From positions 1 through 10,043 of the forward strand of contig JALSRY010000529.1 in the NCBI GenBank assembly GCA_026984555.1: 10,043 nucleotides of DNA. The letters run 5' to 3'. This document shows, piece after piece, positions 1 to 10,043 of the stretch (positions are counted from its first letter, which is position 1; each line of letters starts with the position of its first letter). The DNA is from Phycisphaerae bacterium (GTDB lineage: Bacteria > Planctomycetota > Phycisphaerae > UBA1845 > Fen-1342). The notes under the pieces were generated by a model. That model saw only the letters and a program-made list of their open reading frames with translations, had not been told where the DNA came from and searched no databases. A program made the position numbers and the translations under genes.

Positions 1-1186
1 AGACCACCTCGTCGCGCATCGAATCACCCGCAGGTTGGCCGTCGACCAGCAGCACGCGCAGCGCCGCCCGCACCGGCAACACCACCCGCCGCACGTCGTC
101 GGCCACCAGCCCATCCGCCGGTTCGAGCGTCGCCGTGACGACGGTCTCGCCCTCGTCGGGCACGGTCAGTTCGACCGAAACGGTGCGGCGTGCGCCCGGC
201 TCGATGGGTTCGATGAGAACGGGCGGCAACGTGGTTTTCCCGTAGGCGACGCGCAGACGAGCGCCCTTGAGCGGGCGTTGCGCGTAATTGGTGACCCATG
301 CGCGGAGTTGGGCGGGCATGCCGGCGATCGTGTGCGGCCGCAACGTCGCGATATCCTCGATGGCCGCGTTGTCGCGTGGCCCGCGTCCGAGCGCGATCAG
401 CATCACCCGCAGTCGGCCCGACGCCACCCGCGTCAGCGGTGCGAACCAGCCGCCGGCGGGGGTTGCGGCGTGCGTCGCACTGTCGCCGGCGGTGTCTGCC
501 GCGTCCCGGCGTGCGAGCCATTCGCTGCGCTGAAAATCGGAAAACATGTAGACGTCGCAGCGTTGGCTTGGGGCCGTGGCATCGATCCGCCGGACGATGG
601 CCGCCACGACGCGGGCCGGGTCTGACCGCCGGCTCGTTACCCGCAGTCGCGCCAACCGTTCGCGTAATGTTCCCCACGACTCGACGTCGAGTGTCTGCGC
701 GTCGGCCAGCGGCCGCTCCGGCGCCGACGTGCGGATCAGCGTGACCGGATCGCCCGGCGAGCCGTCGTGAATCCATTGCAGCAACCGCGTCGTGGCGTCG
801 CGCAGCAACGCAAAATCCTGTTGCGTTCCCGCGCGGAACGCGAGACTCGCGGAATCGTCGAGCACCACGATGCGGTGTACGCGTCCGCGCCCCCCCAACA
901 ACGACGCCACCAGCCCGGGACGCACAAACGGGCGGGCCACGAGCAACGCCAGCAACAACATCGCCAGGCAGCGTAGCGCGAGCAGGAGCCACTGCTCGAA
1001 TCGCACTCGGCGGCGGCTCTCACGCTCAGCCTGGAGCAAGAACCGCATCGCCCCCCATTCGAGGCGTCTGTGCCGCCGCCGCGACAGGTAATGGATGATG
1101 ATCGGCAGCGCGACCAGTCCCGCCCCGCCCAGCAAAGCGGGATGCACGAACCAGGCTGCAAGGAGTTGACCGCCGGCGAACAGCAA
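1..1186 (-). CDS. BatA-like VWA-domain membrane protein (partial, C-terminus off the left edge)
   Basis: The visible 395 codons form an open frame running off the window. With the TTG start at 1186, residues 13-34 read as the conserved BatA N-terminal membrane motif (FVHPALL, then PIIIHYL), followed by the basic stretch SRRRHRR and LEWGAMRFLL. A second membrane helix lies at about 66-84. A von Willebrand factor A-like domain follows, with the metal-site motif DDSAS at 110-114 and the planctomycete-type motif MFSDFQRSEW around D217. A beta-rich part ends near LRVLLVDGQP. Proteins of this family are inner-membrane anchored with an extracytoplasmic VWA domain and usually sit with MoxR-type ATPases; the exact role is unknown. 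No MoxR gene is visible here. The start is uncertain: TTG 1186 has GGAGAG four bases upstream and gives a compact N-terminus. An in-frame ATG at 1285 would add 33 residues of doubtful quality. Family call fairly sure, start unsure. Confidence 0.82.
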   Translation of the reverse strand, partial: MLFAGGQLLAAWFVHPALLGGAGLVALPIIIHYLSRRRHRRLEWGAMRFLLQAERESRRRVRFEQWLLLALRCLAMLLLALLVARPFVRPGLVASLLGGRGRVHRIVVLDDSASLAFRAGTQQDFALLRDATTRLLQWIHDGSPGDPVTLIRTSAPERPLADAQTLDVESWGTLRERLARLRVTSRRSDPARVVAAIVRRIDATAPSQRCDVYMFSDFQRSEWLARRDAADTAGDSATHAATPAGGWFAPLTRVASGRLRVMLIALGRGPRDNAAIEDIATLRPHTIAGMPAQLRAWVTNYAQRPLKGARLRVAYGKTTLPPVLIEPIEPGARRTVSVELTVPDEGETVVTATLEPADGLVADDVRRVVLPVRAALRVLLVDGQPAGDSMRDEVV

Positions 1187-1190
1187 GCGT

Positions 1191-1196
1191 CTCTCC
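1191..1196 (-). promoter_or_regulatory. Ribosome binding site supporting a TTG start
   Basis: On the minus strand GGAGAG lies four bases before TTG at 1186. It is the best Shine-Dalgarno match near the conserved N-terminal membrane motif and is why I prefer TTG over the ATG at 1285 or the GTG at 1147, neither of which has a well-placed site. Confidence 0.4.
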
Positions 1197-1404
1197 GTCC
1201 ACGAACGTTCCCCGGGGTCATGTGTGCCGCCACGCACGCCCGGAAACCAAACGACGGGTCCGCGTCCGGCCGCAACGGCCCACATGCCCCGAACCAGTAT
1301 CGGAGTTTAGCCGCGAACCGTCGAGCCGGCGGGCGCGTTCGGCACCGAATCCTCCATGTCCCACCAAGCTTCCCACTGGCAGCAAACGAAACGCCATCCG
1401 TTGC

Positions 1405-1433
1405 TTGACATCCACGGTAGGCCGCGTTACAAG
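1405..1433 (+). promoter_or_regulatory. Sigma70-type promoter for the cysteine-rich/thioredoxin gene pair
   Basis: A perfect -35 box TTGACA at 1405-1410 is followed, after exactly 17 bases, by TACAAG at 1428-1433, which matches four of six bases of the TATAAT consensus. Transcription would begin near 1440, leaving a leader of roughly 90 bases before ATG 1529. It is the clearest promoter-like match I noticed in the window, standing out because the surrounding DNA is GC-rich. The call rests on consensus matching only. Confidence 0.55.
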
Positions 1434-1515
1434 ACACTTCTGCCTGGGAGATTGTCGCAATGTCCCACGCCTCACATATCGCGTCATGTTCGCCTCATGC
1501 TGCATGCCGCGCTAT

Positions 1516-1520
1516 GGAGG
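1516..1520 (+). promoter_or_regulatory. Strong ribosome binding site that fixes the start at 1529
   Basis: GGAGG is placed eight bases before ATG 1529, which is ideal spacing. An in-frame upstream ATG at 1460 also has GGGAG nine bases ahead, but using it would put 23 polar residues before the signal peptide, so 1529 is preferred. Confidence 0.7.
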
Positions 1521-1528
1521 TTTTCTCA

Positions 1529-2278
1529 ATGCTACGCTATCGTGGAGTTTCCCTGCCCCTCATCGTTGCCGCGTTTCTCTTCCTCCCGCTCCTTACCGCC
1601 AGCTCCTGCCCACGCCGCCCCCCAATCGGCACCTGCTTGCAGCCCGGGCCCACGACCGTTTGCCCGACGGCATGCAAACGCCTGGAGAATTGCCACTCTT
1701 GCTGTGCCTACAAATGGGGCCAGCGCGCCCCCGGCAACGCTGGACGCGATCGCTGTGATACCTCATGCGAGAAGAAGTTTCTGGTCTATCCGAAGGCTCC
1801 CCTGCCCTGGGTGCTCGCCGCCCCTGATCCCGGTCCTGCTGGAATACACCAACCCGCCATCCCGTCTGCCTCGCTCCCCACTGTCCGACCGGTGGGGACC
1901 CACACGAACGCTACAACCGACAATCTGCCATGTGAACGCACCGGCGTGTTCCGGGATATTTTCGCCCATGTACCATCCTTCTTCGATACGCAAGATATGC
2001 GTGCTTTCGTCTGTTGGCTCGACGAAGACGACCGCGCTCGACTCCTTGAGGACATCCTCTTGCACCAAGGTGACGTTGACCAACTAACTGCCGATGATTA
2101 CGCGTCACTGATGGAGTGGGTAAACACAAATACTCAGGACCTTCTTGATATGCTTAATACTTATGGAGAGCTTGACGGAGACCCCAACGACGTCTTTCCG
2201 GCGTACCGGAATCTCTTTCTCGATCAACTGTGGTTTGACTATCGTCAGGGTGCGTATGACGAGTGGATCATGGAGTAA
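1529..2278 (+). CDS. Cysteine-rich exported protein, possibly a lipoprotein, of unknown function
   Basis: This 249-residue protein is not one I recognise. Residues 1-26 are a clear Sec signal (basic start LRYR, hydrophobic core from 7 to 22), ending in TASSC at 23-27. That fits the loose lipobox pattern but not the strict L-A-G-C form, so lipidation at C27 is possible and not certain. Cysteines fall at 27, 36, 45, 49, 55, 58, 59, 76 and 80, including two CX3C pairs (45/49 and 76/80) and a CX2CC. If C27 is lipidated, eight remain in this block, enough for four disulfides or a metal site. A proline-rich linker (about 88-122) leads to an acidic, probably helical C-terminal half (about 140-249) rich in Asp, Glu and aromatic residues, with two more cysteines at 135 and 162. 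The gene is AT-richer than its neighbours (26 of 60 bases GC at 2101-2160). Its stop runs into the start region of the thioredoxin-like gene, so the two are likely co-translated and may act together in the periplasm. Confidence 0.75.
   Translation: MLRYRGVSLPLIVAAFLFLPLLTASSCPRRPPIGTCLQPGPTTVCPTACKRLENCHSCCAYKWGQRAPGNAGRDRCDTSCEKKFLVYPKAPLPWVLAAPDPGPAGIHQPAIPSASLPTVRPVGTHTNATTDNLPCERTGVFRDIFAHVPSFFDTQDMRAFVCWLDEDDRARLLEDILLHQGDVDQLTADDYASLMEWVNTNTQDLLDMLNTYGELDGDPNDVFPAYRNLFLDQLWFDYRQGAYDEWIME
2272..2275 (+). promoter_or_regulatory. Ribosome binding site inside the end of the upstream gene, with a TAATG overlap
   Basis: GGAG overlaps the last codons of the cysteine-rich gene. The stop TAA (2276-2278) shares its last A with an ATG at 2278, and a second in-frame ATG lies at 2287. 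The spacing is two bases to 2278 (too short) and eleven to 2287 (acceptable), so 2287 is chosen. Either start implies translational coupling of the two genes. Confidence 0.55.
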
Positions 2279-2286
2279 TGAGCGCC

Positions 2287-3825
2287 ATGTCTCGCACAGT
2301 CGCCCTTCTTGCTGGACTTACGCTCCTGGTCCCCGCGGCAACCGTCGCAGCCGATAGTGTCCCCGCCACGATCCGTCTCGGGCGCTACTCGATCGGCGGA
2401 GCGGCATGGTTCAACGTCGATCAACCCTTGCGAACCTATGATCTGGCACGACGCCCCGTACTGGTTGTCTACTGGGCCACATGGTGTCCACATTGTCTGC
2501 GCAACGTTCCGCTCATCAATACCTTGGAGCACATGTACGCCGACCGTGGCCTGGTGATTATTGCCGTAACCCAGGAACCCGCGACTGTGGTCGCATCCTA
2601 TGTGAAAGCCTACCAGATCCGCTATCCGGTCTGCGCGGGCGCCCCCGCTCGGTATTGCGAGGGGATACCCAGCGTTCCCCATTTTCTACTTTTTTCCGCA
2701 ACCCACACCCTGTTGCGCCAGGGATCCCCTCAAGACGTCGTTCGCGCGCTACATGTGCTCATGAAAACTCACGAGTACAATGTAACGCACGCCCTCACGC
2801 GCCCGGGCACCACCTCAACGCGTCCCGTCGGCTGCTCTTGGGCTCCGGGACGCGGTCCCGGCAATCTCGCCAAAGCCGTGGGCACGATTACGGATTCTAT
2901 ACAACACAGAATAGCGTTGGACGCTTCTGCATTGAAGCGAGTATATGATTTCTACTGGCTCAGCCTGCCAGCCAACGGCCAGCCCGGTGATTCCGAATTG
3001 CGATCGATGGCGAACACCGCGCTGCTCACAATGTTTGCTGCGGCCCGAGACGTGCAGGACACAAAGGCCCTCGATTCCATTCGCGCGGAAGTGCTCAAGA
3101 GGTTGCAGTCGCCCAGCCCATTGTGGTCTGACCGCGCTGCAATGGCGCGGTATACTACATATGTATTTCCCGAAGGCAACGCCTCTGCACTGCGGGCCTT
3201 GCGCGCGGAACTAAGAAAGGAAAAGAATCCTCTTGTAAGGTACTATCTCACAGTAGCTCTGGAAACGCTTGATCCTTCTGTACCGCGACAGGAAGATCCT
3301 CCTTCGGAGATAACAAGATACCAGCAACGATACCGAACCGCAAGAGCATCATGGCTTGCTCGACTCAATGGAATGCCGCCCGAGTGGTCCGATTATGACC
3401 GGTTCGTCAGCAACATAGTTATGCCTGCATACAACGCATCCCGCTACGACCCGAATCTGCTGCGCAAGCTAGAGCGACTCTACTACCAGCATCAGGGTGA
3501 AACACCTGCGGATGTGTTGTTTCGCTACGATCTCCTTCAACTCCTGGGCTCTATCATCGGCAGGTTTGGTGAACGGTTACCGGAAGCGGAACGCCGACCA
3601 ATCGGCACATTCGTACTTTCTTTGCTGTCTGGCGAACCCGATATACATTGGGAACTACGGCAAAGTGCATTGTTTGCAGTTCGCGCCGAGCTCTTCGACG
3701 CGTCGGCAAGAAAGCAGGCTGTGGCCTACCTTAAGCGCTGGCTCCGTAAGGAAGATGTGCGTATTGTGCGCGCGAGTATGCAGGCAGCGATTCTTGAGCT
3801 GGAACATCCAAATCCTGGCGGATGA
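2287..3825 (+). CDS. Exported TlpA-like thioredoxin with CPHC active site and helical (HEAT-like) C-terminal tail
   Basis: The product has 512 residues. Residues 1-22 form a Sec signal peptide, with likely cleavage after TVAA. Residues about 30-165 form a thioredoxin fold of TlpA/AhpC-TSA type: strand VLVVYWATW, active site C67-P-H-C70, strand LVIIAVTQE, and a probable cis-proline at V130-P131 followed by HFLLF. CPHC is the active-site sequence of the oxidase DsbA, whereas TlpA and ResA reductases usually carry CxPC, which hints at an oxidising role. Three further cysteines lie at 116, 124 and in the motif VGCSW. The remaining 300-plus residues are mostly helical. HEAT-like pairs appear near 300-330 (ALRALRAELRKEKNPLVRYY) and over the last 60 residues. 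Typical TlpA-like proteins are under 200 residues, so this is a fusion. Codons such as ATA, AGA, AGG and CTA are common, unlike in neighbouring genes. The start could also be 2278. The thioredoxin call is firm; direction of redox chemistry and substrate are inferred. Confidence 0.8.
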   Translation: MSRTVALLAGLTLLVPAATVAADSVPATIRLGRYSIGGAAWFNVDQPLRTYDLARRPVLVVYWATWCPHCLRNVPLINTLEHMYADRGLVIIAVTQEPATVVASYVKAYQIRYPVCAGAPARYCEGIPSVPHFLLFSATHTLLRQGSPQDVVRALHVLMKTHEYNVTHALTRPGTTSTRPVGCSWAPGRGPGNLAKAVGTITDSIQHRIALDASALKRVYDFYWLSLPANGQPGDSELRSMANTALLTMFAAARDVQDTKALDSIRAEVLKRLQSPSPLWSDRAAMARYTTYVFPEGNASALRALRAELRKEKNPLVRYYLTVALETLDPSVPRQEDPPSEITRYQQRYRTARASWLARLNGMPPEWSDYDRFVSNIVMPAYNASRYDPNLLRKLERLYYQHQGETPADVLFRYDLLQLLGSIIGRFGERLPEAERRPIGTFVLSLLSGEPDIHWELRQSALFAVRAELFDASARKQAVAYLKRWLRKEDVRIVRASMQAAILELEHPNPGG

Positions 3826-3845
3826 ACTGTGCCGGGCGTCGTGCT

Positions 3846-4856
3846 TTACCTCGTAATCTGGCAGATGGCGTATGCCGCGGCGACCTGGACGCGCGCGTCG
3901 TGCTCGCCGGCGGCGAGCTTCTCCAGCAGCGGAAGGGCCTTGTTCTGACGCATCGCGCCGAGCGCGAGGGCGGCGTTGACGCGGATTTGCATCGTCTCGT
4001 CGTCGTTCTGGCCGGTTCGACGCAAGGACTCCGCCGCCAGTGCGTAGCCGGCCCGGTCGCCGAGTCGGGCCAGCGCCCGCGCCGCCAACAGGCGGATCTG
4101 CACGTAGGTTTGTTTGTCGTCGAGCAACCGGTGCAATGCCGCCCGCGCCCGCGGCGCCGCCAGGCGGTCCAGCGTTTGAAGCGCGATCAGCCGCGAGGTG
4201 ATATCGCTTTGCGTGTAGTAAATGAGGGCGTCGATCGATTCGTCGTCGCCGAGCATCGCCATCGCGGAAACGATGTGTACCTGGACGTAGGAGACCTTTT
4301 CCCGCCGCAGCGCGAGCTTGAGGCGTTTGAGCGCTTTCTTTTCGCCGAGCTTGCCGATGAGGTACGCGGCGTCGGCCCGGACCTTTTCGTCGGGGCTGTT
4401 GGTGAGGGCCGTCACGAGAACGCGGGCGGCCCCGGTCTTGCCACAGCGATAGTCGGCATAAGCCGCCCCGATCCGCACGTGGGCATCGGGCTCCTTGAGC
4501 AGTCGGCGGATCACGGGCAACGAGGCCCGATCGCGGACATCCCCAAGAGCCACGAGCCCGGCATAACGCACGAGCTTGGAATCGGCCGCCGCCGCAGCGC
4601 GAAACAGCTCGACGCTGTGTTGGGGATCGACGTCCACCAGCGCTTCGATGGCGTTGGCCCGGACGATGGGGTCGTCCACTTCGGCCGCCGTCCGTAACAG
4701 CGTAAGCGCCCGCCGGGCCAGCGGTACGGCGTGTGTGGGCGAGACCTGCGCCGCGGGGGCTTGGCAGCCGGAAAGCAAGACCAGCAAACCGACGGCCAGC
4801 CGCGAGGCCACCGGGTATCGGTATCCATGCACTCCAACCGCTGCTATGCGCGTCAT
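3846..4856 (-). CDS. HEAT-repeat lipoprotein
   Basis: The 336-residue product starts with a lipoprotein signal: hydrophobic core at about 20-28 and lipobox L28-S-G-C31, with Q at +2, which by the Lol rule of Gram-negative bacteria favours the outer membrane. From about residue 45 to the end it consists of tandem HEAT/PBS-lyase-type helical pairs. Repeated features are V+A/AA+AL or AYLIGKLG-like second helices and a conserved Asp/Arg turn (for example DPIVRANAIEALVDVD, DEKVRADAAYLIGKLG, DARVQVAAAYAICQI). HEAT arrays are protein-binding scaffolds, so the likely role is an envelope scaffold with an unknown partner. The start is well fixed: ATG 4856 follows AGGAGG at eight bases. It abuts the stop of lnt with no intervening base, so the two genes form an operon, which makes sense because Lnt completes the acylation of lipoproteins. 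The stop lies 20 bases from the stop of the convergent thioredoxin-like gene. Confidence 0.85.
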   Translation of the reverse strand: MTRIAAVGVHGYRYPVASRLAVGLLVLLSGCQAPAAQVSPTHAVPLARRALTLLRTAAEVDDPIVRANAIEALVDVDPQHSVELFRAAAAADSKLVRYAGLVALGDVRDRASLPVIRRLLKEPDAHVRIGAAYADYRCGKTGAARVLVTALTNSPDEKVRADAAYLIGKLGEKKALKRLKLALRREKVSYVQVHIVSAMAMLGDDESIDALIYYTQSDITSRLIALQTLDRLAAPRARAALHRLLDDKQTYVQIRLLAARALARLGDRAGYALAAESLRRTGQNDDETMQIRVNAALALGAMRQNKALPLLEKLAAGEHDARVQVAAAYAICQITR

Positions 4857-6860
4857 TTACGAAACCTCCTGGCCCGCCGCGCGTCCCTGGAACCACTGGG
4901 CGACTCGAGCCCGCGCAGCCAGAATCCAGCGTGTGATGATCGCTCCGGCCCAGAGCGCGGCACTGAGCACGACGCACGTGATGGCAAACCAGTCGCCCCA
5001 GCGCCCGTAGAAGCTGGTCCGCTGGTCGATCTTCAGCGCGGCAATGCGATAGCCGATGATCCCCGGTCCGGTCAAACGACCGTGTTTCTCGACCATGTTG
5101 TACAAGCGGCCGGACGGATCGATGAAGCCGCTGATGCCCGTGTTCACCGACCGGGCGATCGCAACGCGGTTTTCGACGGCCCGGAAGATGCAAATCGCGA
5201 GATGCTGAGGCAGCTCGGCGCTGTGCTGAAACCAGCCGTCGTTGCTGACGTTGACCAGGAAATCGGCCCGTCGCCCGCCGCCACGTTCCCAGGCGAAACG
5301 CCGAATCAAGGCGGGCACCGTGTCTTCGTAGCAGATCGGCGTGCCAAAACGCCACGTCTTGCCGCCGACCTCGAGCGGAAACACCGTGCACTCGGTCCCC
5401 GACCACAACGAATACTCGATCTTGCCGCCGTTGCTGAACGGGCTGAGCCGGTTCAGCCAGCGGTACAGCCAGTGGAGGTCGATCCCCCACACGCGCGTGT
5501 TCCGAAACGGCACCACCTCGCCGAACGGCACGAGGTGGATTTTGTCGTAGCGTACGCGGCGTTGTCGGCCGTCGGGGTTGTACACCAGCACCGAGTTGTA
5601 GCGCTTGATTCGCGGGTACGCCTGCTCCGGCGACACGTCCACCGACACCGCCCCCACCAGCACCGTCACCGGCGGGCCTCCCTCCGGAGGCAGGCGCGGC
5701 AGGCGAATCCGGGGTTGCCCGCGGGATTCGCGCGGGTTCAGGGCGTTCTCGAACGATGCGATGATCCGGTTCACTTCCGGGTAGTCCCCCCGCGCGAAGG
5801 CCGAAATAGCCTGGTGGCACATTTTTCCGTACGGCCACGTCCCCGCCGGCAGTTCCTCGCTGTCCTGCGGCGGCCGTTCGAGGAAGCCAATGTTCTGCGT
5901 CGCCGACCAGGCCGTTTCGGGAAACGCGATCAGGTCCGGTTTCTCGCGGGCCGCCTGGGCCGCCAGCGTCAGGTAGCGGGCGAAAATGACGTATTCGTCT
6001 TCGCTGTACGGCGGCGTACTGCTGAGAGGGAAATCCTCCTGGATCACGGCGACGCGTGGCCCATCGCGAAACTCCTCGCGTTTGAGCCGATAGCGCCCGT
6101 ACAGGAAGTCCCCCGCGAGCAGGACGATCAACACGACGCTGCCGACCGCCGGATTGAGCCAGCTACGCCGGTGTCCCACCATCGGCCACCAGCGCAGGAT
6201 CCATTCCACGATCACCGCGTTGACCATCACCGCCAGAAACGTGACCCCCCACGCTCCAACGAGGTCACATACCTGGATGAATGCGATGTGGCGTGAAAAC
6301 GCGTGGGCCAGGTAGAGCCAGGGGAAACCCGTCATGACCCAGCCGCGGAGAAACTCGCAAGCCACCCAGACGACGGGCAAGGTCCAGATCGGTGAGATGC
6401 CCGCCCGCCGACCCGTCCGCACCGCCCACGCCGCCAGGGGCCAGTACAACCCCAGGTAGATCGCCAGCGCCACGTATCCCAGCCCCGTCACCGGCTCCAG
6501 CCACGTCAGGTTCACCAGGAAGAACAAGCTCCCCAGCAAGAAACTACCCCAGTGGACCAGCCACGGCCGCTCCACCCGGCAGACGGCAACCGTCCACGGA
6601 ACCAGCCCCACCAGCGCCAGCGGCCACCAGCTCCGCGGCGGAAACACCAGCGACAGGCACACCACGCTCACGCCCGACAGCCCGACCATCAAGGCCACGT
6701 CGGGTAACAGCCCCCGCACCGATCGGCGTCTCGCCGACAGCTCCGCCACACGCGGCTGGCCTCCGCCGGCCGCACGTTCCGCGGCGCTGACGCTCCGCTC
6801 ACCTGCCGTGTTGTCGCTCGTACCTCTGGCGTGCATCCGCGCATTTCTACCCCCGATCAT
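4857..6860 (-). CDS. lnt: Apolipoprotein N-acyltransferase (Lnt)
   Basis: Lnt transfers a third acyl chain from phospholipid to the N-terminal cysteine of diacylated lipoproteins in the inner membrane. The N-terminal half has about six hydrophobic membrane segments, and a last one follows near the C-terminus (WFAITCVVLSAALWAG). Between them lies the nitrilase-like catalytic domain. All triad elements are present: Glu315 in FPETAW, Lys440 in YDKIHLVPFGE and Cys510 in PICYED, with the family motif VNVSNDGWF downstream. Numbering assumes ATG 6860, giving 667 residues against about 510 in E. coli. The extra length lies in a polar N-terminal extension of about 50 residues and in the stretch between Glu and Lys (125 residues, against 68 from E267 to K335 in E. 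coli). The start is uncertain: GTG 6890, ATG 6860 (weak AGG ahead) and ATG 6836 are all in frame and precede the first helix. It is first in an operon with the HEAT-repeat lipoprotein gene. Confidence 0.95.
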   Translation of the reverse strand: MIGGRNARMHARGTSDNTAGERSVSAAERAAGGGQPRVAELSARRRSVRGLLPDVALMVGLSGVSVVCLSLVFPPRSWWPLALVGLVPWTVAVCRVERPWLVHWGSFLLGSLFFLVNLTWLEPVTGLGYVALAIYLGLYWPLAAWAVRTGRRAGISPIWTLPVVWVACEFLRGWVMTGFPWLYLAHAFSRHIAFIQVCDLVGAWGVTFLAVMVNAVIVEWILRWWPMVGHRRSWLNPAVGSVVLIVLLAGDFLYGRYRLKREEFRDGPRVAVIQEDFPLSSTPPYSEDEYVIFARYLTLAAQAAREKPDLIAFPETAWSATQNIGFLERPPQDSEELPAGTWPYGKMCHQAISAFARGDYPEVNRIIASFENALNPRESRGQPRIRLPRLPPEGGPPVTVLVGAVSVDVSPEQAYPRIKRYNSVLVYNPDGRQRRVRYDKIHLVPFGEVVPFRNTRVWGIDLHWLYRWLNRLSPFSNGGKIEYSLWSGTECTVFPLEVGGKTWRFGTPICYEDTVPALIRRFAWERGGGRRADFLVNVSNDGWFQHSAELPQHLAICIFRAVENRVAIARSVNTGISGFIDPSGRLYNMVEKHGRLTGPGIIGYRIAALKIDQRTSFYGRWGDWFAITCVVLSAALWAGAIITRWILAARARVAQWFQGRAAGQEVS
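4865..4870 (-). promoter_or_regulatory. AGGAGG ribosome binding site embedded in the last codons of lnt
   Basis: The perfect minus-strand AGGAGG lies within the Gln-Glu-Val end of lnt, eight bases before ATG 4856, which follows directly on the lnt stop TAA. The arrangement favours reinitiation or coupled translation of the lipoprotein gene. Confidence 0.75.
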
Positions 6861-7090
6861 GCGGCCTGACCAGCCACCGGCGGAAAACACACCCCGGGAA
6901 GCGGTCTCACGGCATCGCGGAATCCGATCTCCGGGCCCGTTCCGATGTAGAAAGCAGACGTCCGGCCCGCCGAGAAACCTTGCCGCGCGCCGTAGCCGCG
7001 GTGGGATGCTTCGCCTACGATGGGTCGCGGCTTCGTGAAAGCCAGCGCGACACGACCCATGCAGATCGGTAGCCCATTACATCGGACCTT
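6861..7090. other. Divergent intergenic region between lnt and mgtE
   Basis: This 230-base spacer must hold the promoters for both directions, but I could not pick out a convincing -35/-10 pair on either strand. Its right end contains an inverted repeat, described separately. The left 30 bases could be coding if lnt starts at GTG 6890. No RNA gene or M-box-like conserved pattern was recognised. Confidence 0.5.
7020..7060 (+). promoter_or_regulatory. Inverted repeat in the mgtE leader
   Basis: ATGGGTCG at 7020-7027 is perfectly complementary to CGACCCAT at 7053-7060. Inside it, GGCTT (7029-7033) can pair with AAGCC (7039-7043). A competing pairing is GTCGC (7024-7028) with GCGAC (7047-7051), which shares bases with the outer stem. 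The structure ends 30 bases before the mgtE start and could be an operator or an RNA switch. Function is inferred from position only. Confidence 0.3.
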
Positions 7091-8425
7091 ATGACACCTG
7101 CGGAAATCAGAACGGAACTCCTCCTGGCCGAGGAGTTATATGAAGCCTGGCCACTGCTCTCGACGAGCGACCGTGTGGAAGGCTTCAACATGTTGCCGCG
7201 CGACGAGGCTGAAGACCTCTTCGAGATGCTCGACGCGCGCGACCAGCTCGAACTGCTCCGGCACCTCAGCCCGCGCGAGCAGCGGATCTGGATGCGTCTG
7301 CTGGCTCCGGACGACGCGGCGGACGTGATCCAGGAAACCGACGACGAAACGGAACGCCGGCGACTGCTCGACCTGCTCGACGAACCGACGCGCAAGGAAG
7401 TGCTGGCGCTGCTGGCCTACGCGGAGGACGAGGCGGGCGGGCTGATGAACCCGCGTTTCGCCCGCCTCCGGCCGGACATGACGGCGGACGCCGCCATCAG
7501 TTACCTTCGCCGCCAACGAGAAAAGCAGGTCGAGACGATCTACTACGCGTACGTGCTCGACAACGACCAGCGGCTGCTGGGCGTCGTCTCATTGCGTGAC
7601 CTGGTGACGGCCACCCCCGATGCCCGCATTTCCGACGTGATGAACACCGACATCGTCAGCGTCGGCGAACAGGAGGACCAGGAAGAACTCGCCCGCCTGT
7701 TCGCGGAACACGACCTGACCGCGATTCCCGTCGTGGACGACCAGGGCCGGATGAAAGGTGTCGTCACGGTGGATGACATCGTGGATGTGGTCCGCGAAGA
7801 AGCCACCGAGGACATGCAGAAAATCGGTGGTACCGAAGCCCTCGAAGGCCCTTACCTCCAGGTCGAGCTGCCCCGGTTGTTCCGCGCGCGGGTTCCGTGG
7901 CTCGCGGCCCTGGTCGTGCTCGAGTTCGGCAGCGTACTCACGATGAGCGGCTTCGAGGAAACACTGCACAAGGTGTCGTTGCTGGCGCTGTTCATCCCGC
8001 TGATCGTCAGTTGCGGGGGAAACTCGGGATCGCAGGCCTCGACGCTCGTGGTCCGGGCGATGGCGCTCGACGAGGTTCGGCTGCGCGACTGGTGGCGGGT
8101 GATGCGTCGCGAGCTCGCCACGGGAGGGTTGCTCGGGCTGACGCTGGGGTGCATCGGCGCCGCCATGGCCTACGCCTGGATGACCGCCGCCGAGGGTTCG
8201 GGCGCTCCGCTCCACGCTCCGATCGCGCTGACGGTCGGCGGTGGCATCGTCGGTGTGGTCTTGTGGGGAACGACCGTGGGCTCGATGCTGCCGTTTATCC
8301 TGCGTACGGTGCACGTCGACCCGGCGTGCGCGTCGGGTCCGTTCGTGGCGACACTCGTCGACGCGACCGGCATGATCCTCTATCTCGGTATCGCCACGCT
8401 GGTCATGCACGAGGCCCTGGCCTGA
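7091..8425 (+). CDS. mgtE: MgtE-family magnesium channel
   Basis: The 444-residue product matches MgtE in length and full domain order. MgtE is an inner-membrane Mg2+ channel gated by intracellular magnesium. The cytoplasmic N domain (about 1-125) has the usual acidic superhelical repeats (LPRDEAEDLFEMLD, LAPDDAADVIQE). Two CBS domains follow: one beginning near GGLMNPRFARL, and a second with DVMNTDIVSV, then IPVVDDQGRMKGVVTVDDIVDVV. The C-terminal membrane domain (about 268-444) contains the conserved CGGNSGSQAS motif after the second helix and VDATGMILY near the end. Its D424 corresponds to the pore aspartate (D432 in Thermus thermophilus). Nothing appears missing. ATG 7091 has only a weak site (GGA four bases ahead), but the N-terminus lines up with the family. 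It is on the same strand as skp but 98 bases away, so they may be separate units. Confidence 0.96.
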   Translation: MTPAEIRTELLLAEELYEAWPLLSTSDRVEGFNMLPRDEAEDLFEMLDARDQLELLRHLSPREQRIWMRLLAPDDAADVIQETDDETERRRLLDLLDEPTRKEVLALLAYAEDEAGGLMNPRFARLRPDMTADAAISYLRRQREKQVETIYYAYVLDNDQRLLGVVSLRDLVTATPDARISDVMNTDIVSVGEQEDQEELARLFAEHDLTAIPVVDDQGRMKGVVTVDDIVDVVREEATEDMQKIGGTEALEGPYLQVELPRLFRARVPWLAALVVLEFGSVLTMSGFEETLHKVSLLALFIPLIVSCGGNSGSQASTLVVRAMALDEVRLRDWWRVMRRELATGGLLGLTLGCIGAAMAYAWMTAAEGSGAPLHAPIALTVGGGIVGVVLWGTTVGSMLPFILRTVHVDPACASGPFVATLVDATGMILYLGIATLVMHEALA

Positions 8426-8430
8426 CCGGC

Positions 8431-8452
8431 GGCGCCCTTGTGATCGGGCGCC
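8431..8452 (+). terminator. Hairpin just after mgtE, possible terminator
   Basis: GGCGCCC (8431-8437) and GGGCGCC (8446-8452) form a perfect seven-pair GC stem with an eight-base loop, five bases after the mgtE stop. No run of T follows, so it is not a canonical intrinsic terminator. It could instead be an attenuating or mRNA-stabilising stem. Confidence 0.35.
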
Positions 8453-8510
8453 AGTTGGGGACAATGCTCCCACGAATGATTTCGCGGCCGCGGGCCGCCT
8501 GGTTCAATGT

Positions 8511-8515
8511 GGAGG
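8511..8515 (+). promoter_or_regulatory. Ribosome binding site of the Skp/OmpH gene
   Basis: GGAGG sits eight bases before ATG 8524. It excludes much longer in-frame extensions that overlap mgtE and places the start at the beginning of a signal peptide. Confidence 0.7.
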
Positions 8516-8523
8516 AACGGCGA

Positions 8524-9153
8524 ATGAAACGCATGGGGCTGATGGGGTTGCTGGCGGTCGCCGCCGGTGCCGGAATGCTCGCCGCCGTCTCGGGGCTGCA
8601 CGCCCAGGGGCGGAGCGGCGTCACGGGGCGAATCGTCTGCGTCGACGTGGTCAAGGTGTTCGACGAGTACGAACGGCAGAAGGATCTTTCCGACGAGATG
8701 CACAAGCTCCAGGAAGACCTCAAGGCCGAATCGCAAAAACGGCGAGAACGCATCGACAGCCTCCAGCAGACGCTCGATGCGATGAACACGGCCGACCCCA
8801 CGTACACCAAGAAAATGCAGGAGATGCTCCAGTTGCAGATCGACTACAAGAACTGGACCGATCTCATGCAACTCGGCATGGCCCGCGAAGTGGGAGTCTG
8901 GACGCAGCGCATCTACAACGAAATGCTCGCGACCATCCAGCAGACCGCCCAGCAGAACGGCTACGCGATGGTGTTCTACAAGGAGATGCCGCAGTTCCAG
9001 ACCAACGAACCCGACGCGCTCAAGAACGAGATCCGCATGCGCAAGCTGATCTGGGCCGCCGATGCCACCGACATCACCCAGACGATCATCGATCGGCTCA
9101 ACGAGAAGTACCGCAAGGAGCCCAAGACGCAGATGATCCAGCTCACGCCGTGA
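8524..9153 (+). CDS. skp: Skp/OmpH-family periplasmic chaperone
   Basis: The 209-residue product has a Sec signal peptide (KRMGLMGLLAVAAGAGML core) with likely cleavage after LHA at residue 27. The mature protein opens with the family strand IVCVDVVKVFDEYERQ, followed by a long charged coiled coil (about 50-140, rich in Lys, Glu and Gln). The chain then returns through TIQQTAQQNGYAMVFYK to the conserved tail DITQTIIDRLNEKY. This is the jellyfish-like Skp architecture, which as a trimer holds unfolded outer-membrane proteins in the periplasm for delivery to the BAM complex. It is somewhat longer than E. coli Skp (161 residues). It lies 163 bases ahead of lpxD, the same order as in the classical skp-lpxD cluster, but mgtE and not bamA precedes it. 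Family call is confident; the client proteins are inferred. Confidence 0.88.
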   Translation: MKRMGLMGLLAVAAGAGMLAAVSGLHAQGRSGVTGRIVCVDVVKVFDEYERQKDLSDEMHKLQEDLKAESQKRRERIDSLQQTLDAMNTADPTYTKKMQEMLQLQIDYKNWTDLMQLGMAREVGVWTQRIYNEMLATIQQTAQQNGYAMVFYKEMPQFQTNEPDALKNEIRMRKLIWAADATDITQTIIDRLNEKYRKEPKTQMIQLTP

Positions 9154-9247
9154 GCCGACCGCCGCCCCGAGGCGAGCGGTTCTGATACGGGTGGATGCCG
9201 GTGCGTGCGGTCGGCGGAGACTTTGCCACGTAGCGCGGACGCCGAAA

Positions 9248-9265
9248 GCCGCGGGCGGGCGCGGC
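9248..9265 (+). other. GC hairpin in the skp-lpxD spacer
   Basis: GCCGCG (9248-9253) pairs with CGCGGC (9260-9265) around a six-base loop. A competing pairing joins GGACGCCG (9237-9244) to CGGCGTCC (9262-9269). No T-run follows, so termination is doubtful; it may only reflect GC richness, or it may adjust expression between skp and lpxD. The rest of the 163-base spacer shows nothing else. Confidence 0.25.
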
Positions 9266-9306
9266 GTCCACGCCAACCGGAACGAGACGGGATTTCTGCA
9301 AGCCGC

Positions 9307-9310
9307 GAGG
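9307..9310 (+). promoter_or_regulatory. Ribosome binding site supporting the GTG start of lpxD
   Basis: GAGG is six bases before GTG 9317. No ATG lies in frame near the conserved N-terminus, so this site and the LTVAELARQLGA motif just inside the protein set the start. Confidence 0.55.
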
Positions 9311-9316
9311 ACACCA

Positions 9317-10043
9317 GTGGTTCGCAACACGGAATCGCAACCGTTGACCGTCGCCGAACTCGCCCGGCAACTCGGCGCGAGCGTAATCGGAGACGAAACA
9401 CGCGTGGTGCGCCGCGTCGCCACGCTCGAAGAAGCCGGCGAAGACGCGCTTTCGTGGCTCGGTGACGCGAAGTATGCCCAACATCTCCGGCATACCCGCG
9501 CGGCGGCCGTGCTGGTTCCAGAAAACGTGTCGGAGGTCTCGCCCGGGGCGACGCTGCTGGTCGTGCGCGACCCGGACATCGCGATGTGCGACGCCCTGCG
9601 GCTTCTGGGGCCGGGACCGGAGCAGGTGCCGCCGGGTATCCACCCGACCGCCGTAATCGCTCCCGGAGCCGAGATCGAGCAGCCGGCGATCGGACCGCTC
9701 GTCACGGTCGGCCCGGGAAGCCATATCGGTCCCGGTACGCAGCTCCACGCCGGCGTGCGAATCGGGGCGAACGTACGGATCGGCCGCGACTGCGTACTCT
9801 GGTCGGGGGTGGTCGTCCGCGAGCGCTGCACGCTCGGCGACCGGGTGACCGTGCACGCCGGCACGATCATCGGCGCCGACGGGTTCGGCTATCACACGCG
9901 GCGAGGGCGGCACGTCAAGATACCCCACATCGGGGGCGTGGCGATCGAGGACGACGTCGAGATCGGGGCGAATTGCTGCATCGACCGCGCCCGCAGCGGC
10001 GTAACCCGCATCGGCCGCGGAACCAAGATTGATAACCTCGTGC
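9317..10043 (+). CDS. lpxD: UDP-3-O-acylglucosamine N-acyltransferase LpxD (partial, C-terminus off the right edge)
   Basis: LpxD adds the second acyl chain to UDP-3-O-acyl-glucosamine in lipid A synthesis, in the cytoplasm, using acyl-ACP. The 242 visible residues show the N-terminal uridine-binding domain (LTVAELARQLGASVIGD, then ALSWLGDAKY and AAAVLVPENV). From about residue 105 comes the left-handed beta helix of hexapeptide repeats (HPTAVIAPGAEI, IGPGTQLHAGVRIGANVRIG). The LpxD signature HAGTIIGADGFGY lies at 180-192, followed by KIPHIGGVAIEDDVEIGANCCIDR. The window ends at KIDNLV, just before the region that carries the catalytic histidine (His239 in E. coli), so that residue cannot be checked. 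The start is GTG 9317 with GAGG ahead. It follows skp on the same strand, which is a common pairing in Gram-negative bacteria. Confidence 0.95.
   Translation, partial: MVRNTESQPLTVAELARQLGASVIGDETRVVRRVATLEEAGEDALSWLGDAKYAQHLRHTRAAAVLVPENVSEVSPGATLLVVRDPDIAMCDALRLLGPGPEQVPPGIHPTAVIAPGAEIEQPAIGPLVTVGPGSHIGPGTQLHAGVRIGANVRIGRDCVLWSGVVVRERCTLGDRVTVHAGTIIGADGFGYHTRRGRHVKIPHIGGVAIEDDVEIGANCCIDRARSGVTRIGRGTKIDNLV

Follow-up and report, generated by a model that had tools for sequence, protein, structure and literature searches.

Two overlapping genes of a Phycisphaerae bacterium (GTDB lineage Bacteria; Planctomycetota; Phycisphaerae; UBA1845; Fen-1342), coding for a cysteine-rich (Cys-rich) exported protein, P0001, and for an exported thioredoxin-fold protein with a helical tail, P0002, are found in the window, which is the whole stretch of 10,043 nucleotides analysed here (assembly GCA_026984555.1, contig JALSRY010000529.1, positions 1 to 10,043, forward strand). 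Comparison with their relatives gives an even chance that the two proteins form a dedicated module of the envelope, the thioredoxin-helical one binding and holding (folding or escorting) its Cys-rich partner, and that thiol chemistry persists only in the branch to which the window belongs. Indeed, 23 of the 32 members of the P0002 family have no CxxC, the catalytic pair of cysteines separated by two residues, all 32 keep the cis-proline, and a Cys-rich neighbour is kept at 20 of the 23 CxxC-less loci, so that 20 of the 27 paired loci are without CxxC; this combination is best explained if the protein binds its neighbour and the chemistry is secondary and dispensable. Judging from the sequences, the pair is probably held together by binding rather than by chemistry.

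The cysteine-rich protein and its thioredoxin-helical partner

The preliminary description of this DNA, made from the letters alone, had noted a secreted protein with nine cysteines at residues 27-80, followed through a TAATG junction by an exported thioredoxin-fold protein with a CPHC site and a helical tail. These features are all confirmed: the first open reading frame (ORF) codes for 249 amino acids with a hydrophobic N-terminus and contains the nine cysteines, stop and start codons overlap at 2276-2280, and in the second protein Pfam thioredoxin families score above cut-off, CPHC occupies residues 70-73 and the AlphaFold2 model is purely helical from residue 194 to 509. The locus is laid out as follows.

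1516..1520, + strand: GGAGG, likely ribosome-binding site of P0001, read from the sequence, 8 bases ahead of the ATG at 1529
1529..2278, + strand: P0001, Cys-rich exported protein of 249 amino acids, with N-terminal signal, Cys block, low-confidence linker and helical C-terminal domain
1529..1609, + strand: signal region of P0001 with the possible lipid-acceptor Cys27 (TASS-C), by eye
1607..1768, + strand: Cys block of P0001, residues 27-80 (Cys27 plus 36, 45, 49, 55, 58, 59, 76 and 80), modelled helices 52-63 and 71-85
1928..2248, + strand: helical C-terminal domain of P0001, residues 134-240; all 7 long partners of CxxC members have it, the 20 short partners do not
2276..2280, + strand: TAATG stop/start overlap of P0001 and P0002, read from the sequence
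2278..3825, + strand: P0002, exported thioredoxin-fold protein with helical tail, 515 amino acids (ORF, Pfam, AlphaFold2)
2371..2769, + strand: ResA/TlpA-type thioredoxin domain of P0002, residues 32-164 (Pfam, structure model and structural matches)
2485..2496, + strand: CPHC active site of P0002, residues 70-73 (sequence and alignment-column check)
2632..2634, + strand: third Cys of P0002, residue 119, Cys in 8/9 CxxC members and Gly in 23/23 without CxxC
2677..2679, + strand: cis-proline position of P0002, residue 134, Pro in 32/32 members
2857..3804, + strand: all-helical, probably HEAT-like tail of P0002, residues 194-509 (tail profile and AlphaFold2)

P0001 contains eleven cysteines (residues 27, 36, 45, 49, 55, 58, 59, 76, 80, 135 and 162), and a density of at least nine per 54 residues has a probability of about 2e-8 under an assumed background of 1.2% Cys. 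Cys27 is part of a lipobox-like sequence, TASS-C, recognized by eye; more typical boxes are present in the relatives L039, L041 and L058, and in several relatives GC follows the hydrophobic stretch, also by eye. Given this position of Cys27, the block proper comprises eight cysteines, which are invariant across ten Cys-block proteins (alignment A4). Among the short relatives (alignment A9, n=18) four Cys columns are invariant and three further ones are conserved at 90%; that the long and the short Cys proteins share the block is indicated by an hhalign probability of 94.5 (E 8e-8). P0001 belongs to no Pfam or NCBIfam family above cut-off, its Cys block is unmatched by any Pfam family, and a plasmid search with P0001 gave no match. 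The chlamydial protein OmcA is lipid-modified. It resembles P0001 in being a small Cys-rich envelope protein, the likeness being one of description in the accessible part of the source (PMC2811131).

Two further observations concern the Cys genes. A relative of the long Cys protein, at L059 5160-5771 (G056), lacks the first block Cys, and no adjoining thioredoxin gene was seen. Repeats reading PFPSLPFPSLPFPS are located just ahead of several Cys genes in G071 and G037 (L110, L176, L177, L178), and represent either a DNA repeat or a translated low-complexity stretch.

P0002 also begins with a hydrophobic N-terminus, and its WCPHC corresponds to residues 69-73. Three Pfam families score above their cut-offs, AhpC-TSA (35.2 bits, cut-off 26), Redoxin (33.8 bits, cut-off 26.6) and Thioredoxin (25.2 bits); the best NCBIfam row is NF002854, ResA, whose 45.5 bits compare with a cut-off of 170, so that the equivalog/subfamily threshold is not reached, and neither Pfam nor NCBIfam gave a DsbA row with an E of 1 or less. 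The AlphaFold2 model consists of a thioredoxin domain (about residues 32-164) followed by nothing but helices, and among its best structural matches are 4nmu, ResA entries and 3c71, an engineered ResA with CPHC. P0002 is thus similar to the ResA/TlpA-type thioredoxins (PF00578, PF08534), with which it shares an exported thioredoxin domain, a WCxxC site and these structural matches; what sets its family apart is the helical tail, some 315 residues long, together with the Cys-rich partner gene and the existence of a CxxC-less branch. With DsbA the window protein has only its CPHC active site in common: the helices follow the thioredoxin domain, instead of being inserted in the thioredoxin fold, and CPHC is found in no other of the 32 members. 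As regards the tail, HEAT_2 scores below its 27.7-bit cut-off in both P0002 (10.8 bits) and L100 (17.2 bits), the relative P0011 has a precomputed PF13646 annotation, and the tail profile has weak matches to an alphaRep (E 0.14) and to phycocyanobilin lyase (E 0.37); a Foldseek search with P0002 returned the helical chain 4c0d with an E of 8e-4, but with a TM-score of 0.17.

Relatives and conserved pairing

A search of 5.8 billion proteins returned, besides the queries themselves, one close relative for each protein, P0003 for P0001 (57% identical) and P0005 for P0002 (50%), the genes of which lie on one 2693-base contig; two further weak thioredoxin matches were found for P0002. Among 61 related genomes both genes are adjacent in G032, G036 and G037, and the Cys-protein profile added G109, G094 and others. 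A tail-only profile (A3) and a profile of the CxxC-less proteins (A7) were run over 114 genomes of the order, and the loci were then read. Up to 17-19 candidates were scored per genome in the order and 5 to 7 in 392 genomes sampled from the phylum, so that weak family members can be missed in the latter. Beyond the order, the phylum sample yielded five extra genomes with the tail profile, all with weak matches (E 1e-5 to 7e-4), and one, also weak, with the Cys profile; the CxxC-less profile had matches in at least 127 genomes, the best with 71.9 bits on the thioredoxin part and some with less than 30 bits in the tail.

The family as counted here has 32 members, and does not include G090:C139, where the contig begins inside the gene, G086:C221, a fragment with a stop at the contig end, or G093 and G107, with tail matches of about 20 bits. 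Gene starts were chosen by hand at the family loci and taken from the longest ORF at the control loci. The member at G037:C4 has a short tail (379 amino acids in all), and in the first of the G089 pairs the Cys ORF (52 amino acids) begins within the block as read.

Pairing was scored with a fixed rule, which calls for a same-strand ORF of 45-330 amino acids, located from a 90-base overlap to 450 bases upstream and containing at least seven Cys per 60 residues. A Cys-rich ORF lies directly upstream at 26 of 31 family loci by this rule, and at 27 of 32 when the P0003/P0005 contig is included; also the loci found solely through the tail (A3) or CxxC-less (A7) profiles are mostly paired (18/22). 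The controls were loci of the order to which the CxxC-less profile gave about 40 to 80 bits, taken as ordinary thioredoxins (71 loci with at least one duplicate, L013/L133; 68 with a thioredoxin ORF, 67 tested). A Cys-rich upstream ORF was present at two of these 67 loci, namely L129, which is the family member G041 itself, and L135, an ORF without the pattern of the block. In the opposite direction, the short Cys profile gave 22 matches in the order: 19 are known pairs, partly the profile's own rows, and three have no visible thioredoxin partner. When 29 neighbourhoods, which differ in length, were compared all against all, no third gene family was shared by more than three of them, and the families in common are mostly those of G032 and G036, two genomes of one genus.

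The distances of the two partners are correlated, with an r of 0.67 for 27 pairs (permutation p 0.0002). By branch, the correlation is 0.79 in the seven CxxC pairs (p 0.007) and 0.69 in the 20 others, the latter value dropping to 0.54 when a near-identical pair is removed. Since genomes with several pairs are included (G071, G094, G037, G089 and G032), a common species history is by itself less likely to account for this correlation.

Members with and without CxxC

CxxC is present in nine of the 32 members, as CPHC in the window protein only, as CSYC, CPSC and CSVC, and as CAPC in five; the other 23 have none. The cis-proline (Pro134), Trp44 and Arg416 are each conserved in 32/32 members, and the third Cys shows the distribution given above for residue 119. 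The nine CxxC members form one side of a branch, with a support of 100/99, and of 99/94 when the active-site columns are removed. Under midpoint rooting, the CxxC-less L106 and L180 fall with the CxxC group in both full-length trees, which would mean two losses of CxxC; in a tree of the thioredoxin domain with an outgroup, a branch supported at 95/99 separates all 23 CxxC-less rows from the rest, this outgroup being composed of 14 ordinary thioredoxins of 33 candidates, which are not one side of any branch, and L178 being very long. CxxC may have been lost once or twice, depending on the position of the root. The Cys partner is a long form (193-280 amino acids), with a helical second domain, at 7/7 paired CxxC loci, and a short form (52-107 amino acids) at 20/20 paired CxxC-less loci.

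Other cysteines are present in proteins lacking the canonical motif. The unpaired member at G011:C7 (L105 3505-4620) has a C-x2-C a few residues ahead of the usual site (C45, C48). In many CxxC-less members one tail Cys is found by eye at a common place (F...CD.L; alignments A5/A7), and it could serve a mixed disulfide with the Cys partner.

The preliminary description had proposed a dedicated substrate-oxidase pair, and had made this proposal depend on the relatives of the two genes being neighbours elsewhere. They are neighbours at 27 of 32 testable loci, and this part of the proposal stands; its oxidase part does not stand in the form proposed, since CPHC is a feature of the window protein alone and most members do without CxxC while keeping the pair (23/32 and 20/23, respectively). 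Likewise, the view of P0002 as a DsbA-like oxidase, drawn from CPHC, is weakened: the thioredoxin domain is of the ResA/TlpA type, a VKOR with a fused DsbA-like CPAC domain is encoded in the genome of the window (L236 714-2132), and CPHC grafted into AfTrx3 gave -221 mV, compared with -89 to -124 mV for DsbA, in the available text of PMC4395160, so that CPHC is no proof of an oxidase.

There is also the explanation that P0002 is a dedicated disulfide catalyst, which oxidises or shuffles the disulfides of P0001 in the branch of the window, catalysis being the point of the pair. CxxC in 9/9 members of this branch, with the third Cys in 8/9, the eight invariant cysteines of the partner (A4), the overlapping or close genes (gaps of -1 to 60 bases at six paired loci) and the CPHC of the window are consistent with such a role; moreover, dedicated oxidase-substrate pairs exist, as for DsbL/DsbI and arylsulfate sulfotransferase in the accessible part of PMC6067686. 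The similarity to that system lies in a thiol oxidoreductase tied to one presumed client, here by a conserved gene neighbourhood (27/32); the difference is that in the present family the catalytic CxxC is gone in 23/32 members, 20 of which still keep the presumed client. This loss, together with the ResA-type rather than DsbA-type fold, the absence of CPHC from all relatives and the fact that an oxidising potential is not set by CPHC alone, according to the same part of PMC4395160, makes a primarily catalytic pair rather unlikely.

The disulfide machinery of the hosts bears on the opposite, reductive role, in which P0002, as a TlpA/ResA-type reductase fed by DsbD, would keep the cysteines of P0001 reduced for metal binding or redox signalling. 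The ResA-type domain, the CAPC of five of the nine CxxC members and the presence of DsbD_TM in 19 of the 20 family genomes tested (20 of 21, G086 being left out) agree with it. However, VKOR is found in 20/20 of these genomes, the CxxC-less partners have no reductase site, and in the five long forms whose likely lipid Cys is clear, an even number of cysteines (10 or 12) follows this residue, which suits disulfides; the two other long forms are ambiguous in this respect and the short forms are mixed. A reductive or metal-related role is therefore considered improbable. Altogether, VKOR, DsbD_TM and the VKOR-DsbA-like fusion imply that disulfides can form and be reduced without P0002.

None of the other genes in the window is unusual; they comprise a BatA-like and an OmpH-like gene, a HEAT gene, lnt, mgtE and an lpxD that is truncated at the window end. 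The HEAT-repeat protein, with a lipoprotein-like N-terminus (3846-4856, - strand), is convergent with P0002 and does not recur beside the pair in the neighbourhoods compared.

Proposed mode of action and its weighing

In the favoured reading, the two genes would form a dedicated, co-translated envelope module. The P0001-type product would be exported and, here, probably lipid-anchored, with the eight-Cys block folding into a disulfide-braced helical hairpin, and the P0002-type product, likewise exported, would combine a ResA/TlpA-type thioredoxin domain with a HEAT-like helical tail, bind the P0001-type product specifically through the cis-proline groove and this tail, and keep hold of it, fold it or escort it. 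In the branch of the window, CxxC and Cys119 make a disulfide exchange with P0001 likely, and P0002 would probably act on its partner during folding, by oxidation or shuffling, with VKOR as the general oxidant. CxxC is absent from the larger branch, where the partner is the short form without the second domain and the pair has been retained. The physical contact, the disulfide state, the use of the groove and the redox action in the window's branch are what we infer from the comparisons above.

ERp29 and Drosophila Windbeutel have a helical C-terminal domain. They are thioredoxin-fold proteins without CxxC that escort clients, as described in the available part of PMC7506106, and they offer a functional analogy for the CxxC-less branch, in which a CxxC-less thioredoxin fold is likewise followed by a C-terminal domain and clients would be served by binding; it is intended as an analogy rather than as kinship; ERp29 and Windbeutel are eukaryotic proteins of the endoplasmic reticulum, and the window protein itself has CxxC. 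As to the groove, the cis-proline loop of thioredoxin folds, next to CxxC, clamps the substrate cysteine via backbone hydrogen bonds, according to the accessible text of PMC13269488. No description of such a Cys-rich/thioredoxin-helical pair was found in the titles and abstract openings of the papers among the matches listed by the literature searches.

Several observations weigh against a dedicated binding module. The family is patchy, being present in 21 of the 114 order genomes, with a complete visible pair in 17, and no family member was obtained from G001 (89% complete), the other genome in the genus of the window. Five of the 32 loci are without a Cys-block neighbour (one G032 copy, G090:C137, G011:C7, G004 and G005; four have no Cys-rich neighbour and the G032 copy has a block-less remnant), which indicates that the tail protein can be maintained without the partner. 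In the short forms the Cys pattern is less strict, several cysteines being missing in L099 and L111 (A9), and the Cys counts of the short forms are often odd. The Cys block also adjoins another exported helical family without thioredoxin (G009, G026, G080), and thus the thioredoxin protein is not its sole neighbour. The correlated distances may in part reflect shared species history, the conservation of the cis-proline may be due to fold stability alone, and the contact between P0001 and P0002 is putative. The thioredoxin-less helical proteins, of about 420 amino acids, lie beside a small Cys-block protein at L062 2930-6091, L227 102-2028 and L228 1474-3141, and may represent another type of partner for this block.

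The patchy distribution, together with the strong divergence, the tandem copies in G032 and G089, the four copies in G071 and one decayed Cys partner, would also suit an envelope effector with its holder or immunity protein, a secreted disulfide-rich peptide hitting other cells and the thioredoxin-helical protein keeping it harmless or displaying it. The decayed partner belongs to the second tandem pair of G032 (L038 7175-7663), where the Cys protein is a 114-amino-acid remnant without the Cys block and the thioredoxin partner, with CAPC, looks intact. Such a function is, however, very improbable, as export seems likely for both products and lipid anchoring for several long forms, and as there is no system context. 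The five loci without a Cys-block neighbour are, in turn, compatible with two genes that share only an operon and have unrelated functions; this explanation deserves hardly any weight, because the pairing survives duplications, changes of context and a divergence to 16-30% identity, and the distances are correlated.

Beyond the favoured reading of a dedicated envelope module, a more specific proposal, whose chances are somewhat short of even, is that of an order-specific envelope system: the fold of a disulfide enzyme would have become a clamp that holds a dedicated Cys-rich peptide stoichiometrically and without catalysis, its cis-proline groove, which usually places the substrate cysteine for exchange, being kept for peptide binding after the loss of the catalytic cysteines, with a redox-active branch paired with long lipoproteins and a redox-dead branch paired with short peptides. 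The finding points to a Cys-block domain without a matching Pfam family, and to a bacterial family that seems to show enzyme-client pairing naturally uncoupled from catalysis, as the pair occurs both with and without CxxC. This makes it possible to test the recognition of clients by thioredoxin-fold proteins apart from the chemistry, as well as the role of the cis-proline groove without cysteines.

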